Of a DNA stretch of 64,000 nt, positions 3,550-53,813 are shown in pieces. Under the pieces are notes generated by a model that was not told where the DNA came from, did not search any database, and saw only the letters and a program-made list of their open reading frames with translations. Location: the NCBI GenBank assembly GCA_003167555.1, contig PMSN01000025.1, positions 124,001 through 188,000 of the forward strand. Direction: 5' to 3'. The stretch's first letter is position 1. Each line of letters opens with the position of its first letter. The position numbers were made by a program, and so were the translations under genes. This stretch comes from Spartobacteria bacterium. GTDB taxonomy: Bacteria; Verrucomicrobiota; Verrucomicrobiia; Chthoniobacterales; UBA10450.

Positions 3550-3833
3550 TCTACAGCCGCGAAAATGAGTTCGGCGGCGGCCTTCTGCCGGAAACTGAGC
3601 GCGAGCGAATCTTTCCCGAAGCGCACCAGCAGGAAGCGATGGGCATCACCGACTTCACGCAAGCGACGATGACCCGGTGGGTGCGCTCGGATTACGGTCG
3701 CGCCCATACCCTTCATCCGTTCCGGCACGGGCATTTCCTCGGGAGCGGCTCGGGCGCGATGGTGATGACGGAAGCGGGTCTCTACGGGGTTAGTCAGTTC
3801 GAAGCAATCCGCGCGTACGTGCGCGGCAGGTAA
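3550..3833 (+). pseudogene. Orphan 3' portion of an unidentified gene, duplicate of the tail at 1-52
   Basis: An open frame of about 95 codons reads from IYSRENEFGGG to SQFEAIRAYVRGR and a TAA. It has a coding look (AHQQEAMGITDF, LHPFRHGHFLGSG) but no credible start: the first ATG in frame (3483) lies inside the divergent nfeD gene. Its last 17 codons match the gene end at 1-52, with mostly silent differences, so both descend from genes that were under selection. I read it as the remnant of a broken paralogue. I could not identify the family. A short functional protein from an internal ATG (for example 3570 or 3639) is not excluded. Confidence 0.6.
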
Positions 3834-3928
3834 AGAGCGAAGATCGATTGCGCAAGAAACGGTGAGCTTTCAGCAAGAAGCGCGAATCGAAGAACGGTGA
3901 CGCTGCCTATGCTGCCTCCTCTACATTC

Positions 3929-5047
3929 ATGTCTTCGATACTATCCGAGCCGGCGCTCCCGTGCTTAAAAATTGATGAACGCGCCGGAAACGCTGCGGCT
4001 TCCAGTAACCCGGCGCGACTTACGAATCGCCAGCGTTTCCTAAACGCATGCGCCGGTCGTCCGGTGGATCATCCACCGGTCTGGCTGATGCGCCAGGCCG
4101 GCCGCGTGCTGCCGGAGTACCGCGCCCTCAAGGAGAAATTTTCCTTTCTCGAGCTCGTTCAAACCCCGGAGCTGGCGGCCGAAGTAACGCTGCAACCGAT
4201 TCGGCGTTTCGATTTCGATGTAGCCATTTTATTCAGCGACATTCTCGTTGTCCCGGAGGCGCTCGGGCAAGGCTACCAATTTCGTGACCGCGGCGGCATC
4301 GAGATGGCTTTCCAATTGCGTGACGCCGCTGCCGTTGCTCGGCTCGCGACCGCCGCCGTGACTGAGCGGCTGCAATACGTGGCGGAGGCTTTGCCGTTGA
4401 TCAAAAACGCTCTCGGCAATCGCACGGCCCTGCTCGGCTTTGCCGGATCGCCGTGGACCCTCGCCAATTTCATGCTGGAAGGCGGGAGCGCGAAGCAACA
4501 CACGAAGGGCTACGAACTTTTTTGCGCCGATCGCGCTTTGTTCGATTCGCTGTGCGAAAAACTGACCGACGCGGTGACGATCTTCCTTCAGATGCAGATC
4601 GACGCCGGTGTCGATGCTATCCAGATCTTCGACAGCCACGGCGGGTTCGCACCCGCGGAAGATTTCGATGCGCTTTCCGGCCGCTGGATCACTCGGATCG
4701 TCGAGAACATCGGGGGCCGCGTTCCCGTGATCGTGTTCTCGAAAGGCGCGAACTCGAGCTGGGACGAGCTGGTTTCGACGGGTGCAAATGTTCTGGGAGT
4801 CGATTGGAACGTGCGGCTCGGCGATTTGCGTAGACGTTTGCCGCAGCGCGTCGGTCTTCAAGGCAATCTGAATCCATCCTTGCTCATCGACTTCACGCCG
4901 AAGGAGATTGCCGCGAAAACGACGCGCCTGCTGACGGAGATGCGCGGAAGCAACGGCTACATCTTTAATCTCGGACACGGCGTCCCGCCCACGGCCAGAT
5001 TGGAATGCATCGAAAGTCTCGTCGCGACAGTCCGGAGCTTCGTATGA
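3929..5047 (+). CDS. hemE: Uroporphyrinogen decarboxylase
   Basis: Removes four carboxyl groups from uroporphyrinogen III to give coproporphyrinogen III, a cytoplasmic step of haem synthesis. Signatures are the N-terminal PPVWLMRQAGRVLPEYR, the LFSDILV segment with the conserved Asp, GFAGSPWTL in the middle, and NLGHGVPP near the C-terminus. The protein is 372 residues, with about 30 non-conserved residues before the core, so translation could start later than 3929 (an in-frame ATG at 4048 would cut into the core, so I keep the first). It is the first gene of a five-gene haem operon. Its stop overlaps the next start as ATGA. Very secure. Confidence 0.95.
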   Translation: MSSILSEPALPCLKIDERAGNAAASSNPARLTNRQRFLNACAGRPVDHPPVWLMRQAGRVLPEYRALKEKFSFLELVQTPELAAEVTLQPIRRFDFDVAILFSDILVVPEALGQGYQFRDRGGIEMAFQLRDAAAVARLATAAVTERLQYVAEALPLIKNALGNRTALLGFAGSPWTLANFMLEGGSAKQHTKGYELFCADRALFDSLCEKLTDAVTIFLQMQIDAGVDAIQIFDSHGGFAPAEDFDALSGRWITRIVENIGGRVPVIVFSKGANSSWDELVSTGANVLGVDWNVRLGDLRRRLPQRVGLQGNLNPSLLIDFTPKEIAAKTTRLLTEMRGSNGYIFNLGHGVPPTARLECIESLVATVRSFV

Positions 5048-7844: not shown

Positions 7845-8959
7845 GTCGGGACGCCGTCCTCCTCGTCAATCTAGGCTCGCCGAATTCACCGAGCGCCCGT
7901 GATGTCCGGACCTATTTGCGCGAGTTTCTCATGGACGGCCGCGTCCTCGACGCGCCGTATGCGATCCGCTTCGGCATTGTGCATTTCATGATCCTGCCGT
8001 GGCGTCCGAAAAAATCCGCCGAAGCCTACGCGAAAATCTGGACGACGAACGGCTCACCCCTGGTGGTGACGAGCCGTAAAGTCCGGGCGACGTTGCAGGC
8101 GCGCATGGGAATTCCGATCGAGCTGGCCATGCGCTATCAGAATCCGTCGATCGAGCTGGCGCTCAAGAAACTCCGGGCCGCGGGCGTGAAAAGGCTCCTC
8201 TTGATTCCGATGTTCCCGCACTACGCCATGTCGAGCTACGAAACCGCCGTCGAACGGGTCGCGTCGCGACTGGCGAAGATCGCGCCGGAAATATCGTTGA
8301 GTGTGATGCCTCCGTTTTACGAGCACCCCGATTACATCAGGGCTTTGGTAGGAAGCGCGGCCGACTATCTGAAACAACCCTACGATCATTTGCTCTTCAG
8401 TTTTCATGGGATCCCGGAGAGACATTTGCGCAAATCCGATCCGACAAGATGCCATTGCCTGGCGAAACAAGAGTGTTGCGCCGGGACCAGTCCCGTCCAC
8501 GACACATGTTACCGGGCACAATGTTTCAAGACGGCGCGGGCCTTTGCCAAATCAGCCGGTGTGCCGGACGATAAGTTTTCCATCGCTTTTCAATCGCGGC
8601 TTGGGCGGGACCCGTGGCTCCAGCCTTACACCGATCACGTCCTCGAAACTTTGGCCAGAACCGGAACAAGGAAACTGCTGGTGATTTGCCCCGCTTTTGT
8701 CGCGGACTGCCTGGAAACGCTGGAGGAGATTGGCATGCGTGGCCGGCAACGCTTCCGCGACGCGGGCGGCGAGGAACTCACGCTCATTCCTTGTCTCAAT
8801 GAGCATCCACTCTGGCTGGCGGCCCTCGAAAAAATAGTGAGAGAATGGATTGCGCCAGCCAGCACCGGCCCGCAATCTATCGCGTCTGAGATCAGCGGTT
8901 TCGCGAGCAGCCGCCAAAGCCGGCCACAGAAAACGAACGCCAGCAGGGAGAACTTCTAA
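7841..8959 (+). CDS. hemH: Ferrochelatase
   Basis: Inserts Fe(II) into protoporphyrin IX, the last step of protohaem synthesis. Clear marks are VLLVNLGSPNSP at the start, the catalytic His near residue 189 in FSFHGIPERH, and the conserved Glu region CLETLEEIG near 290. Between about residues 203 and 227 lies a cysteine-rich insert (CHCLAKQECC, then CYRAQC). Some bacterial ferrochelatases use Cys residues in this area to hold a 2Fe-2S cluster. Whether this one does cannot be told from sequence. 372 residues. The last 25 or so residues are polar and look dispensable. Stop and next start overlap as TAATG. Confidence 0.95.
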   Translation: MSRDAVLLVNLGSPNSPSARDVRTYLREFLMDGRVLDAPYAIRFGIVHFMILPWRPKKSAEAYAKIWTTNGSPLVVTSRKVRATLQARMGIPIELAMRYQNPSIELALKKLRAAGVKRLLLIPMFPHYAMSSYETAVERVASRLAKIAPEISLSVMPPFYEHPDYIRALVGSAADYLKQPYDHLLFSFHGIPERHLRKSDPTRCHCLAKQECCAGTSPVHDTCYRAQCFKTARAFAKSAGVPDDKFSIAFQSRLGRDPWLQPYTDHVLETLARTGTRKLLVICPAFVADCLETLEEIGMRGRQRFRDAGGEELTLIPCLNEHPLWLAALEKIVREWIAPASTGPQSIASEISGFASSRQSRPQKTNASRENF

Positions 8960-9747
8960 TGAGTTTTTTTCAAACGATTTTACTCGGCGCCATCGCCGGA
9001 TTCACCATCTACCTCGGTCTGCCGATTGGGCGCATCGAGAAGATCTCGGATCGGGTTCGCTCGTTCTTAACGATGACCTCGGTCGGTATTCTCATCTTTC
9101 TTTTGTTCGACATCTTTTCACACATCAAGGAACCGATTGAAGGAACGCTCAAGCAAACGCTCGAGGGAAAGGCGGGCGCCAGCGAGTTTGTTTTACTCCT
9201 CATCATCCTTGTCATCGGATTCGGTGTTGGTTTGCTTGGACTGCTCGCCTTTGAACTGCGCTTCACGCGAGCGACCAGGGAATCCGGGGAACCTCTTTCT
9301 CCCGCGCGGATAGCCATCATGATTGCGACCGGACTTGGTCTGCATAATTTTGCGGAGGGTTTGGCCATCGGCCAGTCCGCCGTGCAAGGACAAGTTGCCC
9401 TGGCCTCGCTCTTGATCATCGGGTTTGGATTGCACAACGCCACCGAAGGCTTTGGCATTGTCGGTCCGTTGGCCGGCACTCGCCCCTCATGGGGTTTCCT
9501 CGGTTTGATGGGTCTGATTGGCGGCGGCCCGACGTTCCTGGGAACCATCCTCGGTTACAGTTTTGTGTCGCAGCGAATCTCCATCCTGTTCCTGGCGCTG
9601 GCCGCCGGCGCCATTCTCTTTGTCATCGGCGAACTTTATCATGTCGCTCGCCGCGCCGGCCTGAAACACGCGGCGACCTGGGGCTTGTTGGTTGGATTCT
9701 TCCTGGCTTATGGCACTGAGTTGGTCTTGGAGATGTCCGGCGCGTAG
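8959..9747 (+). CDS. ZIP-family divalent metal transporter
   Basis: 262 residues with about eight predicted membrane helices. The two diagnostic ZIP metal-site helices are present: LHNFAEGLAIG near residues 127-136 and LHNATEGFGI near 159-168. ZIP proteins bring Zn(II), Fe(II) or similar ions into the cytoplasm. It is fused into the haem operon by a one-base overlap with hemH, so an iron-supply role for ferrochelatase is attractive, but this is inference from position. The metal specificity is not readable from the sequence. Confidence 0.88.
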   Translation: MSFFQTILLGAIAGFTIYLGLPIGRIEKISDRVRSFLTMTSVGILIFLLFDIFSHIKEPIEGTLKQTLEGKAGASEFVLLLIILVIGFGVGLLGLLAFELRFTRATRESGEPLSPARIAIMIATGLGLHNFAEGLAIGQSAVQGQVALASLLIIGFGLHNATEGFGIVGPLAGTRPSWGFLGLMGLIGGGPTFLGTILGYSFVSQRISILFLALAAGAILFVIGELYHVARRAGLKHAATWGLLVGFFLAYGTELVLEMSGA

Positions 9748-9751
9748 TGAG

Positions 9752-11797
9752 ATGACGACGACGCTCTCACCTCAGTTGAAGACTCTTGGTTCGCGAGAGG
9801 GGAATCAGGCGGAGCCGGTCGAAATCTGGAAAGCGCGGAATTTTATCCACGAGCATTCGGATGAAGAGCTTTCGCTGACCCAAGTTGCAAAGGCGGTCAA
9901 CATCAGCCCGAATCATCTGAGCGAGAAGTTCAAGCAGGTGACCGGGGTTAACTTCGTCGAATACATTGCTCGCACACGATTCGAGAAAGCGCGTGGTCTT
10001 TTGCACGATCCGAATCTTCGTGTGAGCGAAATCGCGTTCGCGGTCGGATTCCAATCGTTGTCGCAGTTCAATCGCGCAGAGCGCCCCCGCATTTTACTCA
10101 CGAGTGTCTTCGGCCCTTACGCACAAGACGACGAACACGGTAGCCGCGCCATCAACCCGATGGAGCTCTACCACAACCAGGTCACGCGCGTCCAAGGCCC
10201 GTTCTCGCTGCGCATGTTTCACAGGTCGTGGGGCATCATGCTCATCCAGGCCAACATCGAGGCGCCTTGCACGCTGCTCGATTTCCCCACGTTCGACCGT
10301 TTCCTCGAAGAAATCCGCCACAACCGCTACGATATCGTGGGCATCACCGGCATCACGCCAAACGTCCGCAAAGTCGAGACCATGTGCCGCCTTGTCCGCG
10401 AGCACCAGCCTCTCGCCACCATCGTCGTGGGCGGGCACGTCGCCAACATCGCCAAGATCGAAGATCGGCTCGAAGTTGACCATGTGGTGCGCGGCGAGGG
10501 CGTGCGCTGGTTCCGCCGGTTCCTTGGCGAGGACGAGAACAAACCCATCCGCCATCCGCGGATCTATTCCGGCCTCGGCGCGCGCACGATGGGCATCCCG
10601 ATTAGCGAAAAGCGCGGCGAAGTCGCCGCGACGCTCATCCCGTCCGTCGGCTGCCCGCTCGGCTGCAACTTCTGCTCCACCTCGGCCATGTTCGGCGGCA
10701 AGGGCCATTTCATTAATTTCTACAACACGGGCGACGAGCTTTTCGGCGTCATGCGCGAACTGGAGCGCGACATGAAGGTGCGCTCGTTCTTCGTGATGGA
10801 CGAGAACTTCCTGCTCCATCGCAAGCGGGCGTTGCGGTTGCTGGAGCTGATGCAAGAGCACGGCAAGAGTTGGTCGCTCTATGTCTTCAGTTCCGCCAAC
10901 GTGCTGCGATCCTACACCATCGAACAGCTCGTGAGCCTCGGCATCTCCTGGGTCTGGATGGGTCTCGAAGGCAAAAGCAGCAAATACACCAAGCTCAGCG
11001 GGACCGACACGCTCTCGCTCGTTCGCACCTTGCAGTCGCATGGCATTCGCGTGCTCGGCTCGAGCATCATCGGCATGGAAGAGCACACGCCGGAGAACAT
11101 CGACGAGGCCATCGCCCACTCGGTGAGCCACGATACCGAGTTTCACCAGTTCATGCTCTACACGCCGGTGCCCGGCACGGCGCTGTTCGCCGAGCATCGC
11201 GCCAAAGGCACCCTGCTCGATCCCGAAAGCCGCAAAACTGCGGACACCCACGGCCAACTCAAGTTTAACTTCCGCCACCCGAACATTCCGGCCGGCATGG
11301 AATCGGAGTTCATCATCCGTGCCTTCACGAAGGACTTCGCAGTCAACGGGCCCAGCGTCGTGCGCATGGCGCGGACCACGCTGCAAGGTTGGAAGCGTTA
11401 CCACAACCACCCGGACAAGCGCATCCGCTCGCGCTTCATCTGGGAAGCACGCGACCTCGCGGTGACCTACAGCGCGGCGTTGTGGGCGGCACGGCGGTGG
11501 TTCGACGAGCAGCCGGCGTTGCGCCAGCGCATCGACACCGTGCTGCGCGACATCTACCGGCACTTCGGCTTGCGTGCCCGCGTAGCCGCGCCGTTGGCAG
11601 GCCGCTACATCCATCGCCAACTCCGGCGCGAAGACGAACGCTTGCGCGCCGGCTGGACTTACGAGCCGCCGACGTTCTACGAGAAGACCAACCACCCCCC
11701 GGCCGGGAACTATTGCGCTTTGCCGAATGTCGCGCCCAACAGTGATGACCATCTTCTCATCGCTGCCGCGGTCGAAAGCAGTCTGCCTCATAATTAA
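9752..11797 (+). CDS. Chimeric protein: truncated AraC-type HTH fused to a B12-binding radical SAM enzyme
   Basis: 681 residues. Residues about 25-108 are an AraC/XylS DNA-binding domain (IWKARNFIHEHSDEELSL to FQSLSQFNR) very like the one at 50073-50648, but it stops before the last helix of the second HTH. From about residue 114 it becomes a cobalamin-binding/radical SAM protein beginning ILLTSVFGPYAQDDE, with a B12-binding Rossmann segment (DIVGITGITPN, IVVGGHVANI) and the cluster motif Cys301-Cys305-Cys308 (CPLGCNFC). Family members normally start at that ILLTSVFGPY. The DNA after about 10080 is noticeably richer in G and C at third codon positions. It starts 4 bases after the ZIP gene. 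Either a real fusion, a recombination scar, or an assembly join. The substrate of the enzyme is unknown. Confidence 0.8.
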   Translation: MTTTLSPQLKTLGSREGNQAEPVEIWKARNFIHEHSDEELSLTQVAKAVNISPNHLSEKFKQVTGVNFVEYIARTRFEKARGLLHDPNLRVSEIAFAVGFQSLSQFNRAERPRILLTSVFGPYAQDDEHGSRAINPMELYHNQVTRVQGPFSLRMFHRSWGIMLIQANIEAPCTLLDFPTFDRFLEEIRHNRYDIVGITGITPNVRKVETMCRLVREHQPLATIVVGGHVANIAKIEDRLEVDHVVRGEGVRWFRRFLGEDENKPIRHPRIYSGLGARTMGIPISEKRGEVAATLIPSVGCPLGCNFCSTSAMFGGKGHFINFYNTGDELFGVMRELERDMKVRSFFVMDENFLLHRKRALRLLELMQEHGKSWSLYVFSSANVLRSYTIEQLVSLGISWVWMGLEGKSSKYTKLSGTDTLSLVRTLQSHGIRVLGSSIIGMEEHTPENIDEAIAHSVSHDTEFHQFMLYTPVPGTALFAEHRAKGTLLDPESRKTADTHGQLKFNFRHPNIPAGMESEFIIRAFTKDFAVNGPSVVRMARTTLQGWKRYHNHPDKRIRSRFIWEARDLAVTYSAALWAARRWFDEQPALRQRIDTVLRDIYRHFGLRARVAAPLAGRYIHRQLRREDERLRAGWTYEPPTFYEKTNHPPAGNYCALPNVAPNSDDHLLIAAAVESSLPHN

Positions 11798-11849
11798 TTC
11801 GCCATCGCATCGACGGGCGCGATTTGCTCTCCTATAGTCCGCCCGAACG

Positions 11850-14747
11850 ATGCGAAAATTTTTACCTTTCCTTCTCGCGCTTGCCTTCTGTCCGTTCACC
11901 TTCGCGGCGGACGATCCGGCGCAGGAGGCGCGCTTCCTCACGAACACGCGCCAGTTGATTCTCGAAGGCCGGCGCAGCGGCGAAGGGTATTTCTCGCCGG
12001 ACGGCACCAAGCTCATCTTTCAAAGCGAGCGCGAGGCGGGGAACCCGTTCTACCAGATGTATGTGCTCGATTTGCGGACCGGCGATACGACGCGCGTTTC
12101 GCCGGGCACTGGCAAAACGACATGCGGATTTTTTCAGCCGGGCACCGATCGCGTGATCTTCGCGTCGACGCACGGCGACAGGGAGTCGGCGGCGAAACAA
12201 AAAGCGGAACTGGATTTTCGCGCGAGTGGGAAAGAGCGCCGTTACGCGTGGGATTACGACGACACTTTCGAAATCTATTCCGGCAAACTGGACGGCACCG
12301 ACCTGGTGAACCTGACGCATTCACCCGGTTACGATGCGGAAGGCTCCGTTTCGCCGGATGGGAAGCAAATCGTTTTCTGCTCGCTCCGCGCGGCGTTTCC
12401 GCTCGAGAAACTTTCGCCGGAGCTCCACAGCCAGTACGAGAAAGATCGCTCGTGGTTCGGCGACATTTACATCATGAACGCCGACGGCTCGAACGTGCGC
12501 CGGCTCACGGACGCGCCCGGCTACGACGGCGGTCCGTTCTTTTCACCCGACGGCCAGCGGATTCTCTGGCGGCATTTCGAAGAGAACGGAATGAACGCCG
12601 ATGTCTGGACAATGAAAACGGACGGCTCGGACAAACGGCGCGTGACCGATTTCAAATCGATGTCGTGGGCGCCCTTTCTACATCCGAGCGGGAAGTATCT
12701 CATTTTCACTTCGAACAAATTCGGGTTCGAGAACTTCGAGTTGTTCATCGTGGATGCGAACGGCGAGCACGAGCCGGTCCGGGTGACGTTCACGAACGGG
12801 TTCGACGGGCTGCCGGTCTTTTCGCCCGATGGAAAAAAACTTTGCTGGACGAGTGGACGGACGAGCGACGGTAAGGCGCAGATTTTTCTCGCTGATTGGA
12901 ACGACGCAGCCGCGCAAGAGGCGATCGCGCAAGCGCCGAAGCGCGGCGGTGAAAAAGATCAAGCGGCGGCCGCTGCGTTTTCGCCGCAAATCTCAAAGGC
13001 GGATTTGCAGCACGAGGTCGAATGGCTCGCGGACGAAAAACGCGAGGGCCGGATGACAGGCACCGCCGGGGCGCAGGCGAGCGCGACGTGGCTCATCGAT
13101 TACTTTCGGAAGGCGGGCCTCAAATCTTTCGGTGCGAGTTTCGAGTTGCCGTTCGAGTTCAACGCCGGCGAACGCGTGCTCCCGGAAAAGACACACTGCG
13201 AGATCGCGATCGACGGAGGATCAAAGGCGGACGCGGCGCTCGACCGTGATTTCCGGCCGCTCGCTTTCACCGACGATGGGACTGCGGAAGCCGAGGTCGT
13301 GTTTGCAGGCTACGGCCTCGCGGTGCCGGAGGGGAACGGCGCGCGTTACGATTCGTATGAGGGTCTCGACGTGAAGGACAAGATCGTGCTGCTCTTTCGT
13401 TACGTGCCGGAGAATGTCGATCCGGCGCGGCGCGCGCACCTGAATCGCTACGCAGGTCTTCGTTACAAGGCGATGCTCGCGCGCGAGCGTGGCGCGAAAG
13501 GCGTGCTCGTCGTCACCGGACCAAACTCGCCGAACGCCGGTGAAGTAATGGCGCTCACGAACGACGGCACGAGCGCTGGCAGTAGCATTCTGGCCGCGTC
13601 GATCAGCGGCAAAATCGCGGACGCGCTCCTGGCGCCAAGCGGCAAAACCTTGAAGCAATTGCAGACCGCGCTCGACGATGAAAATCCCCACGCGGAGCAC
13701 GGCTTCGTTTTGCCGAAGGTGAAAGTGAAACTCGCATGCGGCATCGAGCATTTGAAGAAAAACGATTCCGACGTGGTCGCGTATCTGCCGCCGCAAGAGG
13801 GAAGCGGCGATGAATATGTTTTGGTCGGCGCGCACTACGATCATCTCGGGCGTGGCGGCATGAGCTCGCTCCAGCGCTCCGGCGAGGAAAACAAAATTCA
13901 TCCGGGCGCGGACGACAACGCGTCCGGCACGGCGTGGGTAATGGAGCTGGCCGCGTCGCTCGCCCAGGAACGGACCGCGCATCCGGAAAAATTCCGGCGC
14001 GGCGTGATCTTCGCCTGCTGGTCTGGAGAGGAGATCGGGATAATTGGATCGGCGGCCTTTTGCGAGCATCCGCCCGTGCCGCTGAACAAAATCGTGGCCT
14101 ACATCAACGCCGACATGGTGGGCCGCCTGCGCGACAACAAACTCACCGTGCAAGGCGTCGGCTCATCGCATGCCTGGCGGCGGCTCATCGAAAAACGGAA
14201 TGTCGCCGCCGGTTTCAATCTCGTGTTGCAGGACGATCCGTATCTGCCCACCGACGTAACCAGTTTCTACATCAAGAATGTTCCCGTCCTGAATTTCTTC
14301 ACCGGCGCGCACGAGGATTATCACCGGCCGACAGACACCGCCGAGAAGTTGAACTACGACGGGCTCGAACGCGTCACGAATTTCGCCGAGCAGATCATCA
14401 TCGATCTCGCGCAAACATCCGAACGCCCCGATCTCGCCAAAGTGGAACGAAGCGGTCCCACCGGCGGTGGACGCGAGACATTGCGCGCGTATCTCGGCAC
14501 GATCCCCGATTACACGACCGAGGTGAAAGGAGTAAAGCTAAGCGGCGTCCGCGGCGGCAGTCCCGCGGAAAAAGCGGGCTTGAAAGGCGGCGACGTAATC
14601 GTGGAGTTTGCCGGCCAGAAGATCGCAAACATCTACGATTACACCTACGCGCTCGACGCCGTGAAGATCGGCCAACCCGTAAAGATCATCATCGAACGCG
14701 ACGGTCAGCGAATGACCCTCACCGTCACACCCGAAGCGCGAAAGTAA
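11850..14747 (+). CDS. Exported TolB-type propeller / PA / M28 aminopeptidase / PDZ protein
   Basis: 965 residues with a signal peptide (MRKFLPFLLALAFCPFTFA). Residues about 30-350 are TolB/WD40-like propeller repeats (repeated FSPDGKxI motifs). From about 380 comes an M28 zinc peptidase with an inserted protease-associated domain. Metal ligands are visible: H in AHYDHLG near 661, D in GADDNASG near 688, EE in SGEEIG near 727, D in NADMVG near 754 and H in HEDYHRPTD near 825. A PDZ domain closes the protein (about 880-963, SGVRGGSPAEKAGLKGGDVI). It would cleave peptides in the periplasm or outside. Propeller and PDZ likely bind substrate or partner. All catalytic positions look intact. Confidence 0.9.
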   Translation: MRKFLPFLLALAFCPFTFAADDPAQEARFLTNTRQLILEGRRSGEGYFSPDGTKLIFQSEREAGNPFYQMYVLDLRTGDTTRVSPGTGKTTCGFFQPGTDRVIFASTHGDRESAAKQKAELDFRASGKERRYAWDYDDTFEIYSGKLDGTDLVNLTHSPGYDAEGSVSPDGKQIVFCSLRAAFPLEKLSPELHSQYEKDRSWFGDIYIMNADGSNVRRLTDAPGYDGGPFFSPDGQRILWRHFEENGMNADVWTMKTDGSDKRRVTDFKSMSWAPFLHPSGKYLIFTSNKFGFENFELFIVDANGEHEPVRVTFTNGFDGLPVFSPDGKKLCWTSGRTSDGKAQIFLADWNDAAAQEAIAQAPKRGGEKDQAAAAAFSPQISKADLQHEVEWLADEKREGRMTGTAGAQASATWLIDYFRKAGLKSFGASFELPFEFNAGERVLPEKTHCEIAIDGGSKADAALDRDFRPLAFTDDGTAEAEVVFAGYGLAVPEGNGARYDSYEGLDVKDKIVLLFRYVPENVDPARRAHLNRYAGLRYKAMLARERGAKGVLVVTGPNSPNAGEVMALTNDGTSAGSSILAASISGKIADALLAPSGKTLKQLQTALDDENPHAEHGFVLPKVKVKLACGIEHLKKNDSDVVAYLPPQEGSGDEYVLVGAHYDHLGRGGMSSLQRSGEENKIHPGADDNASGTAWVMELAASLAQERTAHPEKFRRGVIFACWSGEEIGIIGSAAFCEHPPVPLNKIVAYINADMVGRLRDNKLTVQGVGSSHAWRRLIEKRNVAAGFNLVLQDDPYLPTDVTSFYIKNVPVLNFFTGAHEDYHRPTDTAEKLNYDGLERVTNFAEQIIIDLAQTSERPDLAKVERSGPTGGGRETLRAYLGTIPDYTTEVKGVKLSGVRGGSPAEKAGLKGGDVIVEFAGQKIANIYDYTYALDAVKIGQPVKIIIERDGQRMTLTVTPEARK

Positions 14748-47725: not shown

Positions 47726-48141
47726 AGGGCAGGCGGAGCGTGCGCCAGAATGCTCCGCTGCAAAACCAACTCCGCAAAGGTGGACGAGCCGGGCGGCCCG
47801 GTATCCGCGAAGTACGAGACGCATTTCAGTTGCCGATCATCGAAGGCGTGAATTTGCGAAACAAAATCGTAGGCGAACAGACTCGCATGCATCTGGGCAT
47901 CCGGCGCCTTGACCGGAACCGCCAAAGTCGCACGCAACGTTTTGCAGCAGGGCGACTCCTGATCGCCGCCACTGGGCTGAACCGGGGAAGGTTCGGGGCC
48001 ATGACAATGCGCCACGGGTTTCCCGGCGCTCGCTTCGATCGCGCTCAAGACACAATGATTCGAAATCGCGAACCACGCCGCCATCGTCAGCATGACGACG
48101 AAAAACTTGGACACCCCCGTGGTTTGGTGACTCACGATCAT
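47719..48141 (-). CDS. Small exported His/Cys-containing protein linked to the cus cluster
   Basis: 140 residues with an N-terminal signal or anchor (VSKFFVVMLTMAAWFAISNHC). Cysteines and histidines follow (AHCHGPEPSP, ESPCCKTLRA). It is coupled to the upstream ThDP enzyme gene by ATGA overlap. Similar short proteins occur before CusA/CzcA-type operons, but I do not know a name for the family. A metal-binding role is inference. Confidence 0.6.
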   Translation of the reverse strand: MIVSHQTTGVSKFFVVMLTMAAWFAISNHCVLSAIEASAGKPVAHCHGPEPSPVQPSGGDQESPCCKTLRATLAVPVKAPDAQMHASLFAYDFVSQIHAFDDRQLKCVSYFADTGPPGSSTFAELVLQRSILAHAPPALA

Positions 48142-49850
48142 ATTCGTTCATCCCGAATGCCTGAACGTTCAAGCGTTTTGTCCAATCGGGTGGAGTCTCC
48201 GGATGGAGCGTTGACTGGCTTCCAGCCGCGCACTCTCGCCACTTCGAGGCCGATTGTCGCCAACTGCGGACTGATGTTGTCGCGCGGAATTTTGATTTCG
48301 ATGACGGTCAACTTGCCGGAGTCCTGGGCGCGTCGGATGGCTTCGTCTAATTCGCCTTTGGTGGAGACGACGGCGGATTCACCGCCGCCAACCAATTCGC
48401 AAATCTTGTGGTAGTTCCATTGCGTGATGACGTTGAACTTGCCGTCATGGAGCTTTCGCATCGTGCCGTAGCCGTCGTTGTTCAGGATAAGAATGATGGG
48501 GTTGAGTCCGAGCCGGACCGCGGTGGAAATTTCCGTCCCGGTCATTTGAAAAGCGCCGTCGCCGACGAGGACGTACGGCCGCAGCGTGGGCCTGGCCAAA
48601 GCGACGCCAATGCTCGCGGGCACGGCGAAGCCCATCGACATATAATATGCGGGCGCGATGAATTGCGCCTGCCGCGCGCTGTGAATCCCGACCGCGCCGA
48701 AAATCGCGTCGCCCACATCAGCGACCACGCAACAACCTTCATCCAGATGCAGGGAAAGGATGCGGAAGATATCGACCGCCGTGAGTGGATCGGAGCGTTC
48801 GCGTTTCTTCAAGGGAGCGGGGACGGCGCGCGGGTTGGGATGTTGAAAGCGCTTCTGCCTGGTCGTGGCCGTCGCGAGTGAGTCGAGAAAATCGCGGAAC
48901 TGCACGGATTCGTAGCGGTGATACTGAACGTTCACGCGCTCGGTCGTGGCCAGGACGGTCCGTTTCCGATCGAGCTTCGCGGTGTAGAACCCCATGCTCA
49001 TGTCGGTGATGAACGTTCCGAGCATGATGACGAGGTCCGCCGATTCAACGTAATTGCGGACGTGCTCGTCGCTGCTCATGGCGCCGCCATAGACGCCGAG
49101 GTAAAGAGGATGGTTTTCGGGGACGGCGCTCTTGCTCAAGAGATCGGCGGCGATGGGGATGTTCATCCGCTCGGCCATCTGCACGACGAGGTGAGCCATT
49201 CGGTAGCGCGCCAGTTCCACGCCGGCGAGGATGACGGGTTTTTTCGCGGCGCGGATGAGTGCGAACGTTTCGTCGAGCGCGGCGGCCAGCGTGTACGGAT
49301 CGGATTTTTCCTGGGCGAGGGGCGCGGCGAAGGCAGTGGGAATTTCGCGGTCGACCATGTCGTGCGGCAGTTCTATGTAGACCGGGCGTTTATGCAGCAG
49401 ACACGCCTCGACGCAGCGAACAATCTCGGAAGCCGCCCGCTGTTCATCGAGCAGGACAGCGCTCGCCACGGTGACTTCATCGTAGACGCGCCGCTGGGTC
49501 TCGAAGGTCTTCACCTTGTGATGAAGGAGCGGATCTTTCTCTCGATCCTTTCGGCCGGGCGCTCCGCTGACAACGACCACGGGTGATTTTTCGGCATACG
49601 CGCCGGCGATGGCGTTGAGAACGTTGAGTCCCCCCACGCAGTAGGTGACGCAGACCAGACCGATTCCGTTGATGCGAGCATACGCGTCGGCGGCGAATCC
49701 GGCGCTGGGCTCGTGCGTCATCGTGACGTTTTTGATTTTCGATTTGTCGAGCGCGGCAAAAGTGGGAAGAGCGAAGTCGCCCGGGATGCCGAAGCTGTGG
49801 CGGACACCGCAGCGGTAAAGGTATTCGAAGAGAAATTGCCCCAATGGCAT
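48138..49850 (-). CDS. Thiamine-diphosphate-dependent decarboxylase (pyruvate/indolepyruvate decarboxylase group)
   Basis: 570 residues. The N-terminal Pyr domain has GIPGDFALPTF and the catalytic Glu in MTHEPSAGFAADAYARING. The C-terminal PP domain has the ThDP motif GDGAFQ...NNDGYGT (VGDGAFQMTGTEIS to LILNNDGYGTMRKL). HHKVKTFETQ in the middle holds the His pair typical of pyruvate and indolepyruvate decarboxylases. It non-oxidatively decarboxylates a 2-oxo acid to an aldehyde. The substrate is not readable. I start at 49850 (MPLGQFLFEYLY), where homology begins. Divergent from an AraC gene. Confidence 0.85.
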   Translation of the reverse strand: MPLGQFLFEYLYRCGVRHSFGIPGDFALPTFAALDKSKIKNVTMTHEPSAGFAADAYARINGIGLVCVTYCVGGLNVLNAIAGAYAEKSPVVVVSGAPGRKDREKDPLLHHKVKTFETQRRVYDEVTVASAVLLDEQRAASEIVRCVEACLLHKRPVYIELPHDMVDREIPTAFAAPLAQEKSDPYTLAAALDETFALIRAAKKPVILAGVELARYRMAHLVVQMAERMNIPIAADLLSKSAVPENHPLYLGVYGGAMSSDEHVRNYVESADLVIMLGTFITDMSMGFYTAKLDRKRTVLATTERVNVQYHRYESVQFRDFLDSLATATTRQKRFQHPNPRAVPAPLKKRERSDPLTAVDIFRILSLHLDEGCCVVADVGDAIFGAVGIHSARQAQFIAPAYYMSMGFAVPASIGVALARPTLRPYVLVGDGAFQMTGTEISTAVRLGLNPIILILNNDGYGTMRKLHDGKFNVITQWNYHKICELVGGGESAVVSTKGELDEAIRRAQDSGKLTVIEIKIPRDNISPQLATIGLEVARVRGWKPVNAPSGDSTRLDKTLERSGIRDERI

Positions 49851-50072
49851 GGTGGGCGGGAAGACGCCGCGCGCCCGCGCGCCCAGGTTGTTCGTGGATC
49901 GCCTGGCCCCAATGCTTTGTTCACCTGCGCAACTCGCGTGCATGGCACTATTGTGCGCAGGCGTTGGTCCTTCGGCTCACCATCCTTTGCCAAACACGGG
50001 GCGGATTTTGCCGAAGCAATTTTCGGTTGAGCAAAATGAGGTGAGTGATTAGCAAGGAACGGGGAGCGTCCC
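49851..50072. promoter_or_regulatory. Divergent promoter region between the decarboxylase and AraC genes
   Basis: 222 bases between two divergent starts, where promoters for both are expected and where the AraC-type regulator might bind. I can see no clear pair of repeats. The region includes tgtgctcccggaaatatttc just before the AraC frame. Confidence 0.4.
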
Positions 50073-50648
50073 GTGTGCTCCCGGAAATATTTCATCACTG
50101 TGAAAAAGAAATCGGGGCGGGCGGGAAAGCGAGCAACAAGGAGCAGAGCGCTTAGGGATTTCCCTGATAGAGCCGGCAAGAATTCATCGGATAGAACTGG
50201 GGCCGCATCTAATTCCGCCTCGGTGAAAACGATTTCTGAACGAAGACTGGATGGGGAGAAAGGCCGGCTCAGCAAGGCCGAGCCGCGCGAAATTTGGAAG
50301 GCCCGGAACTTCATTCACGAACACGCCAGCGAGGAGATCTCGCTGAAGATGGTGGCGAAGTCAGTCAACATCAGCGCCAATCACCTAAGCGAGAAGTTCA
50401 AGGAGGTCACCGGGGTGAATTTTGTGAAGTACGTCGCGCACAGCCGCTACGAAAAAGCGCGAGCGCTTTTGCACGATCTCAATGTGCGCGTAAGCGAGGC
50501 TGCCTTCGCCGCGGGCTTTCAATCCTTGTCGCAGTTCAATCGCGTCTTTCGAAACCTGGCCGGGAAGTCTCCGACTGAATACCGCGCTGTCGCGCGCCAA
50601 ACGCGAACGGGGTGGAACGGCGAGACCAGTGCGGAATTTCGCCCGTAG
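50073..50648 (+). CDS. AraC-family regulator (DNA-binding domain only)
   Basis: 191 residues. Only the DNA-binding part is recognisable (about 75-165): NFIHEHASEEISLKMVAKSV, the first HTH with ANHLSEKFKEVTGV, and the second with FAAGFQSLSQFNRVFRNLAG and SPTEYR. The first 70 residues are basic and unstructured, and there is no sensor domain. The start could lie later. The HTH is nearly the same as in the chimera at 9752, but complete. Probably acts on the divergent decarboxylase or on the cytochrome operon that follows. Confidence 0.8.
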   Translation: MCSRKYFITVKKKSGRAGKRATRSRALRDFPDRAGKNSSDRTGAASNSASVKTISERRLDGEKGRLSKAEPREIWKARNFIHEHASEEISLKMVAKSVNISANHLSEKFKEVTGVNFVKYVAHSRYEKARALLHDLNVRVSEAAFAAGFQSLSQFNRVFRNLAGKSPTEYRAVARQTRTGWNGETSAEFRP

Positions 50649-50650
50649 AA

Positions 50651-51532
50651 ATGCGTAGCCACCCGCGAGCGCTTCCGGTAAAACTGTGTCGCGTGTGGCA
50701 TCCAAGATTAACTCGTTCGTTCCGCGGTAAGCGCGAGAAACTCTGGTGGGTGGTCGGCGGCGGAGCGGCGCTCACCGTCGTTTTGCTTTCTTGCAGTAAC
50801 TTCGAAACAAGCCGCGCCATTCTTGCCCCGCCGAGTATTCCCGGAGCGGAATTTGTCGGGTCGAGCGAGTGCACGACCTGTCACGAAGCGATTGCGCGCG
50901 ATTTCCCGACGGCCACGCACTCGCGCCTGAAAGCGGAGGGAGACAACGCGAAGAACATCGGCTGCGAATCGTGTCACGGGCCGGGAAGTCTTCACGTGAA
51001 AAGCGGCGGCGGCGCACACACGATCATCAACCCGCGCAAATCGCCCGCGGCCTGTTTCCAATGCCATCTGGAAGTGAAGGCGAAATTCGATTTGCCGCAT
51101 CATCACCCGGTGCTCGAAGGAAAAATGAGCTGCGCCGATTGCCACAACCCGCACAAAGGCGACGCGATCAAAGGCGGCGGGGCGAATCTTCCGCAATCGA
51201 TCAAGGGCGGCGGCATCTCCTTGCTCAGCCAAAACGAGACCTGCTTCCAGTGTCACGCCGCGCAACGCGGCCCGTTTGTCTTCGCACACGAAGCGGTGCG
51301 CGAAGGCTGCGTGAGTTGTCATTCGCCGCACGGCTCCGTCAATCAGCGGATGCTAAATGAACGGAGCGCGACGCTTTGCTTGAAGTGTCATTTCCAGCAG
51401 CAAACAGTCGCGGGCCGAATTTTCATTGGCGATTCCGATCACACCAATCGGTTGCCGCAGGCCACCTGTTGGTCGGCCGGCTGTCATGAAGCGATCCATG
51501 GGTCGCAGGTGAATTCGCACCTCAGGTACTAA
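50651..51532 (+). CDS. Octahaem c-type cytochrome, MtrA/DmsE-like
   Basis: 293 residues. An N-terminal anchor or lipoprotein signal (WWVVGGGAALTVVLLSCSN, possible lipobox Cys) is followed by seven CxxCH motifs (CTTCH, CESCH, CFQCH, CADCH, CFQCH, CVSCH, CLKCH) and one CxxxxCH (CWSAGCH). This is the layout of MtrA/DmsE periplasmic cytochromes that plug an outer-membrane barrel. The next gene, 4 bases downstream, encodes such a barrel. Start at 50651 (MRSHPRALPV) is a choice between several. Confidence 0.88.
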   Translation: MRSHPRALPVKLCRVWHPRLTRSFRGKREKLWWVVGGGAALTVVLLSCSNFETSRAILAPPSIPGAEFVGSSECTTCHEAIARDFPTATHSRLKAEGDNAKNIGCESCHGPGSLHVKSGGGAHTIINPRKSPAACFQCHLEVKAKFDLPHHHPVLEGKMSCADCHNPHKGDAIKGGGANLPQSIKGGGISLLSQNETCFQCHAAQRGPFVFAHEAVREGCVSCHSPHGSVNQRMLNERSATLCLKCHFQQQTVAGRIFIGDSDHTNRLPQATCWSAGCHEAIHGSQVNSHLRY

Positions 51533-51536
51533 GGCA

Positions 51537-53813
51537 ATGCGTGATCTAATCATGAGCGCTGTTTGTCCGCGAAGCGGAGCAGCCCGTTTTGCGCGAGGCG
51601 CCGCGCTCTACGCGTGCATTGCTCTGGGCGGAAGTTATCCGCTGCACGCCGGGGACAAAGAGGTGGTGAAAACGGAAACCGCCGCGGCGACCGAGGAAGA
51701 GGAGCCCGACTTTAAGAACTGGATCGAGTTGGGAATTGGCGGGCTCAGCGTCAATGGCGACGCGGCCCAATTCAAACAGGAGCACAGAATTTCGGGCGAC
51801 ATCTTTGGCGGAATTTCGGATCTGCATCTCGAGCAGGCGGTCGGCAAGAAGGGACAATTGACGATCGATGGCCACGCGATGTTCGATAATCACGATTACG
51901 ACGTGAAGCTCGACTTATCGTTCCCGGGCGTGGGTTATATTCGCGGCGGTTACACCGAGTTTCGCAGTTGGTATGATGGCAACGGCGGATTTTCCCCGGG
52001 GAACGGACAATTCTTCACGCCGCCGGATCAGGAGATGGAGCTGGATCGCGGCGAAGCCTGGGTGGAGCTGGGATTGCGGATGCCGAACCTGCCGGAAATT
52101 ACCTTGCACTACTCGCATCTGTTTCGTGATGGCCGAAAGGATTCGACCATCTGGGGTGACACCACGCTAACCGGCCTGGCGGTCAATCCGACCCGGAAAA
52201 TTGCGCCCGCCTTCCGCGACATCAACGAGACGCGGGATATTTTCTCTGCCGATATTTTGCAAAACTTCGGCAAGACCGATATCGGCCTGGGCATGCGCTA
52301 CGAGCACAGTGAAGTAGACGATCGGCTGCAACTCGAACGCAACGCCGGCCAGCTACCGCCGGTGGTCGCAGCGCCGGGCGCGCAACGCTTTATCACTGAT
52401 AATGGCAGGAACAATCTCGATTCCTTTAACGGACATGTGACGGCGGAAACGCGTTTCAGCGATTCGCTCTGGTTCACCAGCGCCTACTCCTATTCCACGC
52501 TCGACAGCGACATCTCCGGCACCCGCATCATCGGGGCAGGATACGACTCGATGTACGGCGATCCCATTTTGACACTGCAATCCAACGATCACGGTGTCCT
52601 CAATTTGAGCGGCGTCTCGCAGGTGAACGAGCACGTGGCCAATCTCAACTTGATGTGGTTGCCCGCCAAAAAACTCACGGTGCTCGCCGCGTTCCGTTAT
52701 ACCCGTGAAGACCAGGACAGCGCCTCCAGTTTTCTCGACAGCAATACCGCGGCGAACACCGCGCCGTTCACGGCCACGAATCCCGCGGGCGGCTTCCATC
52801 AGATTACCCCGGTGCTGCGATCCGGCGATACCGCGGAGTCGTTCAATAACTTCGCGGAAAGCCTGGAACTTCGCTACACCGGCATCGATAACTGGGTCTT
52901 CTATGCGCGAGGCGAGTGGGAAGAAGAAGACGGCAACGTCCACGAACACATCGTCGCGGCGGGCCCCGTCGATCAAGGCTCGATGAACAAGGACACCGAC
53001 ATGCTGATGCAAAAATACACGGTGGGCCTGAACTGGTATCCGACGACAACGCTCAACGTTTCGGGGCAGTATTATCACAAGAGCGTGGACTACGATAACC
53101 ACTTCATCTCCGAGCTGGCCACGCCGCCGGTTGTTGGCTCGGAAAGGAGCCAGCGATTGCTTAGTCAGGAATTGGACACCGATGACGTAAATTTCCGCGT
53201 GACCTGGCGCCCGAAACTCCCGCCGAAGCTGGGCACGATCGCTTTTGTCACGCGTTACGATTACGTGCACGGCACGATCGACGGGATGTGGGGAATATCG
53301 CCCGCCGGCACACCGGGCGTAGGTCTCACCGGCACTACGCTTGCCGAACAGCAATCGGCCGTGATCACCAACCACGTCATCAGCGAAAGCGTTACCTGGA
53401 ATCCGTGCGCGCGGCTTTACCTGCAGGGGAATCTCTCTTATGTCTTAAACGAAACGGACACGCCGGCTGATTTCAACTTGATTCCGAATACGAGCCCGAC
53501 GGTCCTTGATTTCAAGAATGATTACTGGACCGCGAGCGGAGCCGCTGGATTTGTCCTCGACCAGAAGACCGATCTGCGCGCCGAATATTCCTACTATCGA
53601 GCGGACAACTCCCAGAATAATTTCCTGGTCGCCCAGCCCTACGGCATGGGCGCGACCGAGCACACTGTCTCGGCGAGTATCAGCCGGCAGATTACAAAGA
53701 ACGTCCGGCTCAAGGTGCAATACAGTTACTTTAATTACACCGACCAACTTTTCGGCGGCCACAACAACTACGAAGCGCACTCGGTCTTCTCCACGCTGCA
53801 ATTCCGTTTTTAG
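51537..53813 (+). CDS. Outer-membrane beta-barrel, MtrB/PioB-like porin for the octahaem cytochrome
   Basis: 758 residues with an exported N-terminus and a long run of alternating amphipathic strands with aromatic ends (for example GQLTIDGHAMFDNHDYDVKL and VRLKVQYSYFNYTDQLF), ending in FRF, the C-terminal Phe signature of outer-membrane barrels. Together with the preceding octahaem protein it forms a porin-cytochrome pair. In known systems the barrel holds the cytochrome so that electrons cross the outer membrane. No CxxC motif typical of some MtrB proteins is seen in its first residues. A general porin is the alternative. Confidence 0.85.
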   Translation: MRDLIMSAVCPRSGAARFARGAALYACIALGGSYPLHAGDKEVVKTETAAATEEEEPDFKNWIELGIGGLSVNGDAAQFKQEHRISGDIFGGISDLHLEQAVGKKGQLTIDGHAMFDNHDYDVKLDLSFPGVGYIRGGYTEFRSWYDGNGGFSPGNGQFFTPPDQEMELDRGEAWVELGLRMPNLPEITLHYSHLFRDGRKDSTIWGDTTLTGLAVNPTRKIAPAFRDINETRDIFSADILQNFGKTDIGLGMRYEHSEVDDRLQLERNAGQLPPVVAAPGAQRFITDNGRNNLDSFNGHVTAETRFSDSLWFTSAYSYSTLDSDISGTRIIGAGYDSMYGDPILTLQSNDHGVLNLSGVSQVNEHVANLNLMWLPAKKLTVLAAFRYTREDQDSASSFLDSNTAANTAPFTATNPAGGFHQITPVLRSGDTAESFNNFAESLELRYTGIDNWVFYARGEWEEEDGNVHEHIVAAGPVDQGSMNKDTDMLMQKYTVGLNWYPTTTLNVSGQYYHKSVDYDNHFISELATPPVVGSERSQRLLSQELDTDDVNFRVTWRPKLPPKLGTIAFVTRYDYVHGTIDGMWGISPAGTPGVGLTGTTLAEQQSAVITNHVISESVTWNPCARLYLQGNLSYVLNETDTPADFNLIPNTSPTVLDFKNDYWTASGAAGFVLDQKTDLRAEYSYYRADNSQNNFLVAQPYGMGATEHTVSASISRQITKNVRLKVQYSYFNYTDQLFGGHNNYEAHSVFSTLQFRF

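Follow-up and report, generated by a model that had tools for sequence, protein, structure and literature searches.

The window, a stretch of 64,000 nucleotides (G000:C12:124001-188000) from a source genome of 4.2 Mb in 29 contigs, carries at positions 9752..11797 of the forward strand an ORF of 681 aa with an ATG start. Upstream lies a hemE-hemN-hemG-hemH-ZIP row, in which the last gene (8959..9747, forward strand) was named from its sequence as a ZIP-family-like metal transporter; its stop codon precedes the ATG of the ORF by 4 nt, and among 83 genomes of the family the gene was found only here and in G019, a genome of another genus. A sequence-only reading of this DNA had described an AraC HTH running in frame into a radical SAM protein. 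This was borne out, as the ORF listing shows a frame that is open across the join and Pfam profiles matched HTH_18 (residues 46-109), HTH_AraC (32-72), B12-binding (177-253) and Radical_SAM (296-454) within the one protein.

Residues 1-109 (9752..10078, forward strand), here termed AraC', comprise the start codon, a complete first HTH (HTH1) and a second HTH (HTH2) that is cut in its recognition helix. Homology to AraC stopped at R108, the last residue of FNR (window ~10075-10077), and the strongest DNA matches to this part in other genomes stopped at query base 323-327. Homology to radical SAM proteins began at about R111 (RPRILL), two or three residues past the end of the AraC homology, in agreement with the earlier placing of this start in the ILLTSVFGPY region. 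The junction, FNR/A-E/RPRILL, occupies 10073..10084 (forward strand). A shift in base use at the join had also been recognized, and GC3 was indeed 0.65 before the join and 0.85 after it, most neighbouring genes having values of 0.68-0.75. A complete B12-binding/radical SAM enzyme follows in residues 111-648 (10082..11697, forward strand), and the last ~30 residues (GNYCALPNV...PHN; 11706..11797, forward strand) form a tail. The HTH had been called nearly identical to that of the complete AraC relative in the same genome (50073..50648, forward strand), but the actual identity was 74% for DNA and about 76% for protein.

The two-HTH unit of AraC proteins has seven helices and ends in F(K/R)xxxGxSPxxYR. 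The first HTH, with its conserved core, is present in AraC' (HTH_AraC, E 1.3e-11) and 26/26 invariant positions were kept. The HTH_18 match covered profile positions 2-65 of 80, the last 15 (66-80) being missing. In an AlphaFold model AraC' contained helices at residues 23-34, 42-48, 53-64, 68-84, 91-97 and 103-108; helix 6, the recognition helix of HTH2, was cut to 103-108, helix 7 was absent, and helix 6 passed without a break into the first strand (beta-1) of the B12 domain, at residue 114, with pLDDT below 50 at 103-105. The sequence-only reading was correct in that the AraC homology ends at FNR and the last helix is missing, while the exact place of the break is inside the recognition helix of HTH2. 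All 18 stand-alone AraC relatives compared keep the tail that AraC' is missing; their sequences run on beyond FNR through a whole final helix region, which ends SP..(Y/F)R. Up to R108 the region shares 59-88% identity with complete proteins that stand alone in genomes of the same bacterial family, and it resembles the HTH-only subfamily of AraC/XylS-type regulators, from which the fusion differs in its cut second recognition helix, its absent last helix and the enzyme that follows. The nearest stand-alone AraC to AraC' was that of G019 (88.7% DNA identity).

The enzyme part has the features of the radical SAM superfamily, with a CxxxCxxC 4Fe-4S motif (C301, C305 and C308) near-invariant in 28 sequences and a Radical_SAM match of E 4.4e-11. 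An N-terminal B12-binding domain (PF02310, residues 177-253, E 2.4e-11) precedes the radical SAM domain, which is the class B layout. The model of the enzyme was closest in fold to AprD4 (the top match), MgmA, CysS, TokK and OxsB, at an identity of only 12-17%, and shares with these class B enzymes a B12-binding domain followed by a radical SAM barrel with CxxxCxxC; it differs from them in belonging to an orphan family of its own and in its long helical C-terminal domain. AprD4 has the class B fold but is not known to use B12, and fold alone therefore does not decide cobalamin use. No solved structure was related to the enzyme by sequence profile, and no NCBIfam equivalog (BchE, HpnJ, HpnR, PhpK and others) scored above cut-off, the best being BchE with 63 bits against 481. 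The fusion protein reaches 681 aa because of its AraC' leader. Stand-alone members of the B12-binding radical SAM family occur widely, in Planctomycetota, Omnitrophota, Verrucomicrobiota, Desulfobacterota and others (loci L034-L112 and L166-L183). Conservation within the family is high, with 140 columns invariant among 25 sequences; its neighbours are unconserved and it falls outside named families. An operon partner was sought and rejected, since no neighbour was conserved among 79 loci.

The radical SAM part was present in two of the 83 genomes of the family, namely that of the window and G024, and the other 81 did not have this radical SAM gene. At the level of the order (213 genomes) six more carried the enzyme, all without the AraC part. 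Among 80 enzyme loci drawn from 84,980 species genomes the fusion occurred only in UBA10877, the other 79 beginning with an unconserved leader. The AraC part was absent from all 97 other radical SAM loci, and a widespread family architecture was rejected, as no further case of the fusion turned up in these loci, in the 213 order genomes or in 387 sampled phylum genomes. No published AraC-radical SAM fusion was found in the open-access literature. Separate genes in relatives, which the sequence-only reading would have held against the fusion, are the rule in most genomes; yet the fusion is common to two genomes, and so is not refuted.

A search of related genomes for the same fusion, and for a second genome spanning positions 10040-10120, had been suggested from the letters. 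One such genome was found: G024 (DMCG01000130.1, Spartobacteria bacterium UBA10877), of another genus in the same family, which spans the junction with identical sequence. The two fusion copies were identical at 1916/1955 bases (98%), with 39 substitutions and no gaps. Identity began at the ATG and ended at 11705, and the flanks differed on both sides. The fusion is a real in-frame chimera, present in two soil-type bacteria of different genera.

Comparison of the two copies gave a dN/dS of 0.19 for the enzyme part (12 non-synonymous against 19 synonymous changes), and both copies keep 140/140 of the columns invariant among 25 stand-alone relatives, the CxxxCxxC cysteines included; the enzyme part is under purifying selection. 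It was considered whether the gene might instead be a dead scar, a chance open frame that is neither expressed nor selected. Such a reading would suit the surroundings in UBA10877, where the fusion stands in a row of gene fragments, and the C-terminal tail in the window, which is a read-through of former intergenic sequence. Against it are these selection data and the 681-codon frame, open in both genomes, and we regard it as unlikely.

The state of AraC' is less easily read. The window copy retains 34/34 near-invariant AraC positions, and five amino-acid and two synonymous changes separate the two copies. The resulting dN/dS of 0.75 rests on these 7 changes and did not differ significantly from the 0.19 of the enzyme part (Fisher p 0.21), so that the sign of relaxed selection on AraC' is no more than suggestive. 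The lack of visible decay is compatible with youth or with a retained role, and the fusion is too young for decay and use to be distinguished. A retained role would mean that HTH1 and protein dimers take the enzyme to DNA, or that the state of the enzyme controls binding, giving a catalytic regulator comparable to Ada. Ada, which combines an AraC-type HTH with methyltransferase domains, retains the whole HTH unit, and its regulatory role has been tested. The fusion likewise joins an AraC-type HTH and a catalytic domain in one chain, but its HTH unit is truncated, in contrast to that of Ada. The complete HTH1 and the preserved near-invariant positions would favour such a role, as would an upstream motif retained in G024, with a CGAGCAA direct repeat that is possibly an AraC autoregulatory site. 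However, HTH2 is without half its recognition helix and without helix 7, both kept by 18/18 stand-alone relatives; the joint has low model confidence and no linker; and the upstream motif is lost in the window copy. Because the second recognition helix is cut and joined into a B12 strand, specific DNA binding by the fusion protein appears unlikely on the model, and a working AraC' is accordingly held to be improbable. Structurally, the earlier description (a regulator joined to a catalytic domain) is accurate, but a working regulator is unlikely given the broken second recognition helix. There is a still slighter chance that the truncated unit gives DNA contact through HTH1 and dimerization, in which case a cobalamin-dependent radical SAM enzyme would be targeted to DNA or regulated by it; a leader that still touches DNA would make it a new catalytic regulator.

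The site of insertion was identified by comparison with G019, which shares the hemE-hemN-hemG-hemH-ZIP row with the window (83.6% over 6.2 kb) and lacks the fusion. In G019 the ZIP gene ends GCGCGTAG and is directly followed by GAACTATTGCGTTTTACCGA, whereas in the window GCGCGTAG is followed by the inserted segment (9748..11705, forward strand) and then by GAACTATTGCGCTTTGCCGA. At the stop codon TAG, GCGTAG runs directly into GAACTATTGCG in G019, and in the window the insert lies between GCGTAG and GAACTATTGCG. The 3' end of the fusion differs in UBA10877, where it reads DPEEVAVSAGLVAATQPSAAS. Since GAACTATTGCGYTTTRCCGA immediately follows the stop codon of the ZIP gene in G019, the C-terminal residues of the window protein are encoded by DNA that was once intergenic, behind the ZIP gene, and is now read through. 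The intact stand-alone relatives of both halves, the empty site and the sharp ends of the insert favour the recombination scar that had been proposed from the sequence. By a repeat search and by comparison with the empty site, 9600-11900 has neither terminal inverted repeats nor a target-site duplication nor mobility genes, and thus shows none of these features of a transposon or integron cassette; transposon or repeat-mediated insertion was rejected. A viral, phage or plasmid carrier was likewise rejected, as a degenerate junction pattern had no match in viral contigs and the enzyme part had none in plasmids or phages. The other proposal of the sequence-only reading, an assembly join, was discarded because the second genome carries the same junction between different, unrelated flanks. 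An assembly or binning artefact is barely plausible, for although each of the two assemblies is fragmented into many contigs and that of UBA10877 comes from a metagenome, the exact junction is common to two separate assemblies that are 2% diverged, it is not credible that both made the same chimera independently, and the window copy sits within a 398 kb contig exactly at the site that is empty in G019.

Outside the fusion, the remainder of the G024 contig was only 64-85% identical to the genome of the window. The 98% identity of the fusion segment against these surroundings, together with the empty site in G019, marks the segment as horizontally transferred, and the low similarity outside the fusion suggests a recent arrival in the genome of the window. 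In a tree AraC' of the window grouped with G019 (SH-aLRT 98), apart from the AraC paralogue of its own genome. On the G024 contig the identities to G019 were 87.6% for AraC', 89.4% for a transketolase-like gene and 83.6% for a PDC-like gene; the three are about equally close, and AraC' thus looks native in UBA10877. In that genome AraC' is preceded by a 109-aa gene and by the motif CGAGCAAGATTAGACGAGCAATTGCC, and a similar motif stands before the stand-alone AraC genes of G019, G058 and G106. As the AraC piece still follows its ancestral neighbour and upstream motif there, the fusion was probably formed in a UBA10877-like lineage; formation there and subsequent transfer to the lineage of the window would be the simplest order. 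The parent radical SAM gene was not found, the nearest relatives being about 73% identical. A tree placed the enzyme part, with moderate support (SH-aLRT 85), next to copies from Chthoniobacterales, and a planctomycete donor, which had been considered from raw identity (72-73%), was rejected on this placement.

The motif CGAGCAAGATTAGRCGAGCAATTGCC with the CGAGCAA direct repeat was seen upstream of stand-alone AraC genes, of the UBA10877 fusion and of an isocitrate-dehydrogenase-like gene row (G024:C26:2650-2667 in L164, G019:C1:213879-213896 in L160, G024:C225:7637-7654, G024:C139:3912-3929 and G024:C26:8256-8273). Its core was absent from the genome of the window, and no Rfam match to a riboswitch or other known RNA was found near AraC or the upstream motif. 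Behind the fusion in UBA10877 (L164, G024:C26, 1-570) lie 63 HemN-like residues and then, adjoining the PDC-like gene, a pdxH-like 3' remnant that appears to be frame-shifted; the same contig also carries a second, complete pdxH-like region. The HemN-like residues were 58-65% identical to their best matches, which belong to a different family of the order, and such a fragment was absent beside all other enzyme copies. The fragment and the remnant may be read as a recombination patchwork.

Taken together, these data describe a real chimeric gene that was born by recombination and has moved horizontally; its product is most probably an ordinary radical SAM enzyme that carries AraC' as a passenger leader. 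The joining would have taken place in a UBA10877-like lineage, where recombination without long homology linked a radical SAM gene to codon 108/109 of the lineage's own AraC gene; the upstream region of AraC, its start codon and its first 108 codons would have stayed in place, and all behind them would have been lost. The finished chimera would later have been transferred to the lineage of the window and inserted directly behind the ZIP stop, at the end of the hem row. Its product would be an ordinary cobalamin-binding radical SAM enzyme of an orphan family, translated from the captured start, with AraC' as an N-terminal leader without specific DNA binding. The likely benefit would be expression, which in UBA10877 would come from the AraC upstream region and start, and in the window from a start codon that follows the stop of the ZIP gene by 4 nt.

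Enzymes activated by in-frame fusion to an upstream gene (promoter capture) have been seen experimentally (PMC4395868), and deletion-born fusion genes have been reported across bacteria (PMC12803068). The chimera resembles both in that an upstream start, and in UBA10877 also an upstream region, stands in frame with an intact downstream enzyme, and in that the function of the front part may be lost. It differs in occurring in natural genomes of two genera and in having moved horizontally as a finished chimera, and its cause need not be deletion. Here the birth of a gene by fusion can be traced in nature: the sequences reveal the families of both parents, an empty target site, a locus that retains its ancestral surroundings and a further copy in another genus. 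The case suggests that fusions of the promoter- or start-capture kind can persist under selection and pass from one genus to another.

Several further observations concern the rest of the window. In G019 the match to the ZIP-like gene (8959-9747) is split into two parts that lie in different frames. Upstream of hemE (3582-3845) there is another partial match to the transketolase-like 3' end. Positions 1-190 resemble about 3779-3953 (69%), and G019 lacks the intervening region at this place; the neighbourhood is a rearranged one. The complete AraC gene stands in 48138-53813, as in G019, together with a PDC-like enzyme, a many-CxxCH protein and a 758-aa MtrB-like outer-membrane protein, which by eye looks like a porin-cytochrome electron-transfer cluster.
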